A DNA stretch of 51,274 nt from Modicisalibacter coralii (GTDB lineage: Bacteria > Pseudomonadota > Gammaproteobacteria > Pseudomonadales > Halomonadaceae), in contig NZ_QWBW01000033.1 of the NCBI RefSeq assembly GCF_004117855.1, forward strand, positions 1-51,274. Reading direction: 5' to 3'. Below, in pieces: positions 20,972-49,415 of this stretch. Position 1 is the stretch's first letter; every line of letters starts with the position of its first letter. The position numbers were made by a program, and so were the translations under genes. The notes below the pieces were generated by a model. It was given only the letters and a program-made list of their open reading frames with translations, was not told where the DNA came from and searched no databases.

Positions 20972-20990
20972 CGATTTTCCCTGTCTCTCA

Positions 20991-21147
20991 GAGGGTGTCT
21001 ACAAAACAGGCGAGCGACGGCAAGACAAGGCAAAAATTGACGAGAAAGAGGACCGGTCTGGCGATCCAGTTACATGCATGTAAATGAGCATATTGAGTCA
21101 ATTTTTAACGCCGTATTGCCGAGTGCAGCCCTTTTGGAGACATCCTC
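20991..21147. repeat. Dispersed palindromic repeat, copy 1 (157 bp)
   Basis: The element begins GAGGGTGTCTACAAAA and ends TTTTGGAGACATCCTC, an inverted repeat with two mismatches. Inside are the conserved left arm GCAAGACAAGGCAAAAATTGA, pairing partly with GTCAATTTTT, and an apex palindrome TTACATGCATGTAA next to the conserved GTAAATGAG. It fills most of the gap between the DUF945 gene and the pgpA stop codon, ending at the base before that stop. Copies 2 (34454) and 3 (49275) share layout and orientation. I recognise no named family. Confidence 0.85.
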
Positions 21148-21621
21148 TCAATGCAGCCAGAGCCACAGGTGCATGGTGCTCCACGCATATACCCCGGCGA
21201 GGATGTCGTCGAACATGATGCCGAAGCCACCGGCGACGCGCCGGTCGACCAGGCGGATCGGCCAGGGCTTGATGATGTCGAAGACCCGGAACACCACGAA
21301 GCCCCACAGCGCGGCCTGCCAGGAAAACGGTACCGCGGCCATGGTCAGCCAGTAGCCGACGAACTCGTCCCAGACGATCCCCGAATGGTCGTGCACACCG
21401 AGATCGTGCGAGGTCTTGTCACACAGCCAGATGCCGATCAGTCCGGTGACCAGCACCATCCCCAGATACCAGGAAAGCGGCATGCCGGAGAACAGCCAAT
21501 AGAAGGGAATCGCCGCCAGGGTGCCGAAGGTGCCCGGGGCGAACGGCACGGCACCGCTGCCCAGGCCGAAGGCGAAGAAGTGCGTCGGACGACGCCAGAC
21601 ACTCCGGGGGGCCCGATTCAT
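21148..21621 (-). CDS. pgpA: Phosphatidylglycerophosphatase A
   Basis: A predicted 157-residue inner-membrane enzyme that dephosphorylates phosphatidylglycerol phosphate. Visible are the PgpA opening THFFAFGLGSGAVPFAPGTFG, the conserved acidic site VWDEFVGYW, the segment FRVFDIIKPWPI and MFDDILAGVYA. The start at 21621 overlaps the thiL stop (ATGA) and has GGAGG 6 nt upstream; a nine-codon longer frame is unlikely. It is the last gene of the nrdR-to-pgpA cluster. The palindromic repeat begins directly after its stop. Confidence 0.95.
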   Translation of the reverse strand: MNRAPRSVWRRPTHFFAFGLGSGAVPFAPGTFGTLAAIPFYWLFSGMPLSWYLGMVLVTGLIGIWLCDKTSHDLGVHDHSGIVWDEFVGYWLTMAAVPFSWQAALWGFVVFRVFDIIKPWPIRLVDRRVAGGFGIMFDDILAGVYAWSTMHLWLWLH

Positions 21622-34172: not shown

Positions 34173-34453
34173 CCGCCCCGGCCTCGAGCGCCCGCCTAGG
34201 GCCCGGGCACGGGATAGCCCGTGGGAAGGAACTCGTTCCCGACGGCGGGGGCACGCCCCCATTCATCACGTCCCCCGGTCGATGCCGCAAGCGGGGTCTT
34301 GCCGGCTCGGGAGCACGCCCGCCCGGTGCCAGCGTCCCGACCACGGTAACGTTCACGAAAGATTGGCGCACTCGGGTCGCCAGAGCCACCGGCTTGCCGG
34401 TAAAGTGCCCTCAATCCGCCACCCTGGCGCTGCCGGCCATATCGTCACACCGA
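34173..34453. other. Intergenic region between phosphorylase and diguanylate cyclase
   Basis: The gene-free gap is 34135-34609. Besides the REP pair (34151 and 34221) and the palindromic repeat copy 2 (34454-34594), it contains a short hairpin CACGGG-ATAG-CCCGTG at 34208-34223. This has no T run and could be a processing structure or weak terminator. From 34246 to 34453 I see no gene or clear regulatory motif. Confidence 0.5.
34221..34245 (+). repeat. REP-like palindrome, direct copy
   Basis: GTGGGAAGGAACTCGTTCCC followed by GACGG: a GTGG head and a GGAAC-TC-GTTCC palindrome. It is nearly identical to the copy at 44457 and inverted relative to 34151, forming a two-unit mosaic. Confidence 0.7.
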
Positions 34454-34594
34454 GAGGGTGTTTACAAATTAGGCGAGCGAAGGCAAGACAAGGCAAAATC
34501 GACCGAAAAAGCGGAGTTTACACGGGGTAAATGAGCATTTTGAGGCCGATTTTAACGCCGTATTGTCGAGCGCAGGCATTTTGTAAACACCCTC
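34454..34594. repeat. Dispersed palindromic repeat, copy 2 (141 bp)
   Basis: The terminal inverted repeat is perfect: GAGGGTGTTTACAAA at the left, TTTGTAAACACCCTC at the right. The inner stem pairs AAAATCG with CGATTTT, and the apex is TTTAC-ACGGG-GTAAA. The conserved parts GCGAAGGCAAGACAAGGCAA, GTAAATGAGCATTTTGAG and AACGCCGTATTG match copy 1. It ends 15 bp before the diguanylate cyclase start, just ahead of its GAGGA ribosome-binding site, so it would be transcribed as its leader or overlap its promoter. Confidence 0.85.
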
Positions 34595-34609
34595 CGAGGA
34601 CCGTCACTC

Positions 34610-49274: not shown

Positions 49275-49415
49275 ACCGATGGAGGGTGAGCCTTTCGAGC
49301 GAAGGTCAGACAAGGAGAAAACGACCCAGACGACGGAGTTTACTCTTGTAAATGAGTAAGCCTGGGGCGTTTTCAACGCCGCATGACCGAGCGCAGATGG
49401 CTCACGCCCATCGGT
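49275..49415. repeat. Dispersed palindromic repeat, copy 3 (141 bp)
   Basis: It starts ACCGATGGAGGGTGAGCC and ends GGCTCACGCCCATCGGT. The terminal arms differ in sequence from copies 1 and 2 but still pair. The inner stem pairs GAAAACG with CGTTTTC and CCAG with CTGG; the apex is TTTAC-TCTT-GTAAA. Conserved segments are CGAGCGAAGGTCAGACAAGG, TGTAAATGAG and CAACGCCG. It sits between dgoD and dgoA, its last base being the first of the dgoD stop codon's reverse complement, so it is within the operon transcript. Confidence 0.85.

Follow-up and report, generated by a model that had tools for sequence, protein, structure and literature searches.

A conserved folded core in a probable MITE family with differing terminal repeats, from Modicisalibacter coralii

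ERIC repeats serve in fingerprinting, and to our knowledge there is no agreed reason for their core. These repeats, also known as IRU or RU-1 (127 bp), are long imperfect intergenic palindromes like the elements described here; the available part of PMC2229807 dates their first description to 1990–1991 and reports that in Yersinia they destabilise upstream mRNA in an orientation-dependent manner through an RNase E site. REP/BIME, the Yersinia YPAL/RU-2 and the E. coli RU-3 are dispersed palindromic repeats too, and RU-2 and RU-3 as printed in the available part of PMC2759123 show no core visible by eye. REPs are 20–40 bp long according to an excerpt of PMC3733652, whereas the present elements, at 141 bp and with target duplications, fall outside this RAYT-mobilised class. 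Terminal inverted repeats (TIRs) and target duplications similar to theirs occur in IS5-family elements of Pseudomonas syringae, namely ISPsy19 and MITEPsy1 with its proposed parent ISPsy2, for which the accessible text of PMC3189936 gives such ends and CTAG/YTAA 4-nt or 3-nt duplications. MITEs and ERIC are thus known kinds of repeat, and what is new is a core common to different TIRs and to several phyla. The literature covered, with most subscription journals outside its scope, held no description of this core, nor of ERIC joined to such elements.

The window, a stretch of 51,274 nucleotides from Modicisalibacter coralii, holds elements of 141–157 bp (Table 1). An earlier note on this DNA had described three copies in one orientation, with a common skeleton and paired changes in their stems, the first beside pgpA. 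The positions hold on checking, and the covariance model R1, trained with no window copy and with one other copy from this genome, finds all three. The skeleton and the paired changes are real, and the adjacency to pgpA extends to its stop codon, which the right target duplication of copy 1 supplies. Copies 2 and 3 fold with z scores of −7.82 and −6.32 and copy 1 at full length with −4.55, each beating 200/200 dinucleotide shuffles; when copy 1 is cut at 150 nt, z is only −1.15 and 29 of 200 shuffles fold equally well. Each whole element forms one quasi-palindrome with the TIRs at its base. The neighbours of copy 1 are pgpA and a DUF945 gene, each read from the minus strand; a MASE1-GGDEF gene (start 34610) begins 15 bases after the end of copy 2; and copy 3 has a gene of mandelate-racemase type on one side and one of KDPG-aldolase type on the other, with no target duplication seen by eye in its flanks. 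Further features, beyond those noted earlier, are several TIR types, a REP-like repeat nested in copy 1 and an apex conserved far beyond this genome. The REP-like repeat (GACCGGGCTSGCGNNCSAG) occurs in the genome 26 times exactly and 9 times with one mismatch, and a backwards control gives 5; 10 of the 35 copies (7 exact, 3 with the mismatch) lie inside elements, at GAG sites as judged by eye.

Table 1. Positions of the three elements and their parts in the window.
Feature	Coordinates	Strand	Basis or remark
Copy 1, full element, TIR GAGGGTGTCTACAAA type	20991..21147	+	R1, 43.7 bits; fold
Conserved structured core of copy 1	21017..21113	+	covariance model R1
Left target duplication TCA of copy 1	20988..20990		by eye
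Right target duplication TCA of copy 1	21148..21150		by eye; minus strand reads TGA, the pgpA stop codon
Nested REP-like 19-nt repeat in copy 1, at tandem-GA site	21051..21069	+	one mismatch to pattern
Copy 2, full element, TIR GAGGGTGTTTACAAA	34454..34594	+	blastn; fold
Left target duplication CGA of copy 2	34451..34453		
Right target duplication CGA of copy 2	34595..34597		
Conserved structured core of copy 2	34480..34560	+	R1, 94.7 bits
Copy 3, other outer-arm type (ACCGATGG..GGTGAGCC)	49275..49415	+	
Conserved structured core of copy 3	49302..49381	+	R1, 52.5 bits

Three is the count for the window but not the total, since a search of the 4.44-Mb genome (74 contigs) with R1 returns 50 matches at E ≤ 0.1, 49 of them at E < 1e-4. 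With copy 2 as the query, blastn gives 47 genome rows, seven of which are the palindrome matching itself in reverse, leaving 40 distinct places; copies 1 and 3 are missed. All 14 genomes of the genus, this one included, match copy 2 with its flanks, and among the matches listed nearly all fall on the element part. One element copy (C29:22700-27300) is interrupted at the apex: some 3.8 kb of DNA separates its halves, and the longest open reading frame there (627 aa) resembles a conjugation coupling protein by eye.

The proposal of a mobile non-autonomous element is borne out by the TIRs, the target duplications, the 49 dispersed copies and an orthologous site at which the core is absent. The element termini are GAGGG.. 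with mostly TNA duplications, or CAGGC.. with YTAR. Perfect 3-bp duplications, for which the chance is 1/64, flank 16 of 23 GAGGGTGTTTAC-type copies (TIR GAGGGTGTTTACAAA; picked by a TIR expression from this genome and same-genus loci) and are missing from the other seven; 13 of the 16 read TNA. Among 19 Pseudomonas-type copies with CAGGC[CT]GTTGAAAAA, nine have 4-bp YTAR repeats and ten have no perfect duplication; six of the nine repeats are palindromic (CTAG, TTAA) and could be the TIR end itself, and three are not. Two of the checks proposed earlier were made: target-site duplications are present (copies 1 and 2 in Table 1, and the GAGGGTGTTTAC-type set) and the orthologous site of copy 2 is without the core in two relatives, as judged by eye and with the model at this one site, in 3.4-kb loci around the orthologous GGDEF gene that share short flank similarity. 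The reading of the copies as ordinary cis-regulatory RNAs or as terminators, each fixed at its own gene, is hardly credible: the intergenic sites near start or stop codons would suit it, and the dispersed copies, the target duplications, the absence from two relatives and the lack of a T-run after the hairpin (by eye) all argue against it.

We read the element as a MITE, short and without genes. Its ends suggest that it would be moved in trans by a DDE transposase of IS5 type, one that recognises the TIRs and leaves a target duplication of 3 or 4 bp. A search of the genome with PF01609 and one TIR pattern found no parent transposase with matching TIRs: PF01609 has eight matches, among them a multicopy insertion sequence (IS) with other ends, and the TIR pattern returns the ends of the elements themselves and two solitary ends. 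The multicopy IS was rejected as a parent on its TIR, AGAGCGCCTTTCAAAACC, and an IS5 transposase adjoining a copy in P. tremae was rejected on its one visible end, which differs. A multicopy IS with ends AGAGCGCCTTTCAAAACCT stands at six contig ends at least. Phage records gave no match at E ≤ 0.01.

Other copies in the genome have only the core in common with these elements and carry TIRs of TAAGCTCTGTCTGAAAAA or TAGGCTTTGTACGAAAA type, copy 3 representing a third type. Because the same core lies between different TIRs in distant bacteria, it would have outlasted a change of transposase partner or have passed from one MITE to another; this suggests that the ends of bacterial MITEs can change with a functional core retained. 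Conservation by descent only, the core being a piece of one ancestral IS that decayed into all of these MITEs, is improbable. The TIRs do resemble the IS5-type ends of ISPsy19 and ISPsy2/MITEPsy1 (PMC3189936, available part), yet MITEPsy1 has such TIRs without the core (by eye, and with no model match), and it was rejected as a family member on that ground; moreover, the loop letters are fixed while the stems diverge, and no autonomous element with the core was met in a search that was not systematic. The copies were likewise not recognisable as decayed parts of a known transposon, none of which matched in the records searched.

The core spans about 60–80 nt and comprises a covarying stem, fixed non-Watson–Crick internal loops and an apical hairpin. 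In the proposed fold, one strand would form, from the base upward, the covarying stem, a G.A/A.G tandem, A-T pairs with a bulged A, two mostly G-C pairs, a second G.A/A.G tandem with an extra G/C, a G.U pair and a 5-bp hairpin. Its stems are shown by covariation, and the G.A pairs themselves we infer from the fixed letters. We analysed two alignments. A2 (MAFFT) was built from 151 distinct copies, of which 18 failed a filter; the rest gave 56 clusters at 88%, and 37 were aligned. Paired cells make up 90.3% of A2, a percentage raised by the omission of 19 of the 56 clusters, mostly with broken or shifted arms. Covariation in A2 is 0.307, against 0.108 ± 0.009 for shuffled alignments (0/500 as high) and at most 0.120 for a slid control, and RNAalifold, unaided, returns the same 19 inner pairs. 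Double changes in A2 lie mostly in the variable stem; its apical helix is almost invariant, partly because the query used to fetch public loci, TTTACN{3,12}GTAAATGAGNATTTTGAG, fixed the apex letters, which are thus uninformative on conservation.

A3 consists of 55 distinct model-fitted rows from genomes sampled in the phylum of the window and from E. coli, the ERIC copy not included. Here covariation reaches 0.547, against 0.166 shuffled and at most 0.096 slid, and the apical stem itself covaries (UA/CG, UA/GC). The compensatory changes reported earlier, and with them the structured-RNA half of the earlier proposal, are thereby upheld; in neither alignment does covariation fall to the level of a shuffled null. 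The unpaired G41, G62, A63 and A66 are identical in 55/55 rows and A43 in 54/55, the pair C40-G64 is present in 55/55 and the closing G.U in 51/55, counts that are inflated by the picking of rows by model score. The left strand, GAAAAAGCG[GC]AG, was not part of the fetch query, and in the 151-copy set, which includes other phyla, its G, A and G are kept in 145, 149 and 144 copies. Between that first G and the A, 89 copies have G and 60 have C. Position 36 of A2 (42 of A3) is often C, so that one G.A pair is not strictly kept. A coding reading of the apex, as a Shine–Dalgarno GGAG with ATGAGCATTTTGAG, was rejected, since neither reading frame nor stop codons persist from copy to copy (by eye) and GCAG replaces GGAG in 60 of 151. 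Extra hairpins appear by eye at the tandem-GA sites in this genome, in a Nitrosomonadales and in a Desulfobacterales genome, as would be expected if the fold tolerates insertions at its loops.

Covariation of this kind could also arise from upkeep of the palindrome by template switching between its arms, the fold itself not being selected. The arms are palindromic and the variable stem holds most of the double changes in A2, as such a process would have it. Template switching should, however, also convert GA/GA, G.U and the bulged A to pairs, and these are unchanged in 51–55 of the 55 model-chosen rows of A3; the retention of the unqueried left-strand letters in 144–149 of 151 copies speaks against it as well, and we regard it as very improbable. 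Read on the opposite strand, the two G.A tandems and the bulged A become T.C and T, and the fixed fold therefore belongs to one strand. Retention of the G.U and of the G.A tandems points to selection acting on a single strand, probably at the level of RNA, with a putative function. Taken together, we are confident, short of certainty, that these elements form a family of MITEs whose core is under strand-specific selection.

A scan of public genomes gave at least 120 loci carrying the core. Among the matches listed are Pseudomonas, Halomonadaceae, Nitrosomonadales and Thiotrichales, as well as Desulfobacterales and Desulfuromusa, of the Desulfobacterota, and Alistipes, Rikenellaceae and Bacteroidaceae, of the Bacteroidota. 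The Desulfobacterota and Bacteroidota sources are all metagenome-assembled, where binning errors are possible; six Bacteroidota genomes have 20 to 61 matches each. With scoring limited to 11 candidates in any one genome, matches at E ≤ 1e-3 occur in 105 of 398 genomes drawn from across the phylum; 16 genomes chosen for holding a copy contain from 7 to at least 150 copies each. One sampled genome of 2.0 Mb has at least 150 matches, and in the copies read from it the inner stem is incomplete. An E. coli intergenic repeat, first seen among low-scoring sampled genomes, is present in 5375 of 5426 E. coli genomes at a median of 5 places. Its copy between nfi and hemE has the full core (55.6 bits, E 4.6e-13 in 170 kb), with outer arms that differ and no blastn similarity to the window copy; blastn of copy 2 against E. 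coli returned nothing at E ≤ 0.01. This repeat is perhaps identical with the "RSA" repeats, which are of about the same number.

ERIC itself shows a weak resemblance to the elements in its core. In the one ERIC copy that was examined, AAGGC.., GGAG-CTTAC-ATAA-GTAAG-TGA and ..AACGCAG follow one another as in the core and on the same strand, and R1 scores this copy at 16.9 bits, with E 0.0003 in 644 bases without filters (next site 3.5 bits) and 0.038 in 77.5 kb; it went unreported at E ≤ 0.05 in a 170-kb R1 search, and in 32 kb of unrelated plasmid DNA chance sites reach up to 12 bits. The ERIC copy differs in being without the AAAA/TTTT segment and the second GA tandem of the element core, and its termini and TA target, as given in the available part of PMC2229807, differ from those of the element. 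A 44-base ERIC core sequence occurs in 5373 of 5426 E. coli genomes. The exact ERIC apex was found in 0 of 185 genomes taken class-wide, a result of little weight because each family was represented by one or a few. A relationship between ERIC and the elements is likely but unproven. The earlier statement that no named family was recognised thus stands in one respect, in that Rfam gives no match in the window at the gathering score and none at E ≤ 10 around copy 2, and requires amendment in another, given the resemblance to ERIC and the related E. coli intergenic repeat.

Placement was scored with crude rules for open reading frames (ORFs) and element boundaries. By the ORF rule, the 32 copies from this genome comprise 15 convergent, 6 divergent, 5 sense, 5 antisense and 1 unclear, and the 74 public copies outside Bacteroidota and Desulfobacterota comprise 21, 12, 22, 10 and 9, respectively. 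Sense placement is therefore favoured over antisense outside this genome only, and the 5 versus 5 within it gives no support to a cis role that depends on orientation in this genome. In Bacteroidota, a strong hairpin, by a threshold that 5% of random windows pass, lies just upstream of the copy in its + orientation in 17 of 22 cases and downstream in 1 of 22, a bias of side that is absent elsewhere (7 versus 10 of the 74 other public copies, 3 versus 2 of the 32 from this genome). A T-run is often present by eye, and the gap between hairpin and element is 3–14 nt in the 13 best-scoring Bacteroidota copies. The left gene is directed at the hairpin in 13 of 20 cases (ORF rule) and away from it in at least 4, so the hairpin need not always be the terminator of that gene. 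None of the five Bacteroidota copies whose ends match the expression has a target duplication. Group II introns of class IIC are placed after terminators, and the Bacteroidota copies, alone among those tested, are likewise placed behind terminator-like hairpins; Rfam finds no domain V or intron match in the window elements.

These data bear on whether the core works as RNA or as DNA. We put at somewhat less than an even chance the reading that it acts when transcribed in host mRNAs, where its fold would be the target of an RNA-binding protein, or a nuclease, that is widely conserved; such binding would make insertions tolerable or adjust the stability of neighbouring mRNAs, as reported for ERIC in Yersinia. 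In the variable stem, G.U exceeds A.C by 21 to 8 (18 to 8 in distinct stems, p 0.08; 47 of 151 rows were omitted from the count), an excess that leans toward RNA and is not decisive. A role as DNA, in which a lagging-strand hairpin or cruciform joins the TIRs for the transposase or exposes them to a host factor, appears to us unlikely, though well short of negligible. Tandem G.A is stable in DNA too, the whole element is one quasi-palindrome with the TIRs at its base, copy 2 folded with DNA parameters lies far beyond its shuffles as well (z −6.26), and the oriented Bacteroidota copies next to hairpins suggest strand-specific insertion. Against this, the closing pair that is G.U (G.T) in 51/55 rows would be C.A on the other strand, whereas a cruciform would favour Watson–Crick pairs on both, and we know of no DDE element that needs such an apex. 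The DNA may thus have a part in synapsis or strand-specific insertion, at this lower probability.

More broadly, and with slightly greater reserve than for the RNA reading, we suggest that one structured motif absent from Rfam may underlie many of the interspersed repeats found in Gram-negative bacteria, among them ERIC and the E. coli repeat. The core would then be the selected unit, riding unrelated TIRs and swapping transposases. It would be a module, in RNA or single-stranded DNA, for a recognition factor that Pseudomonadota, Desulfobacterota and Bacteroidota share, and in Bacteroidota it would enter behind terminators in a fixed orientation. Were this so, insertion would have to distinguish the two strands at some step, which DDE MITEs are not known to do. 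A fold held in common with other phyla, together with dozens of natural covariants, makes the motif testable with respect to its positions, its binding protein and its effect on mobility or mRNA fate. Many of the hairpins beside Bacteroidota copies resemble GGGGATGACTAAAAAGTAAATTAGTCATCCCC, and three Alistipes copies have their right arm interrupted by a further element, about 130 bp long and palindromic to the eye.
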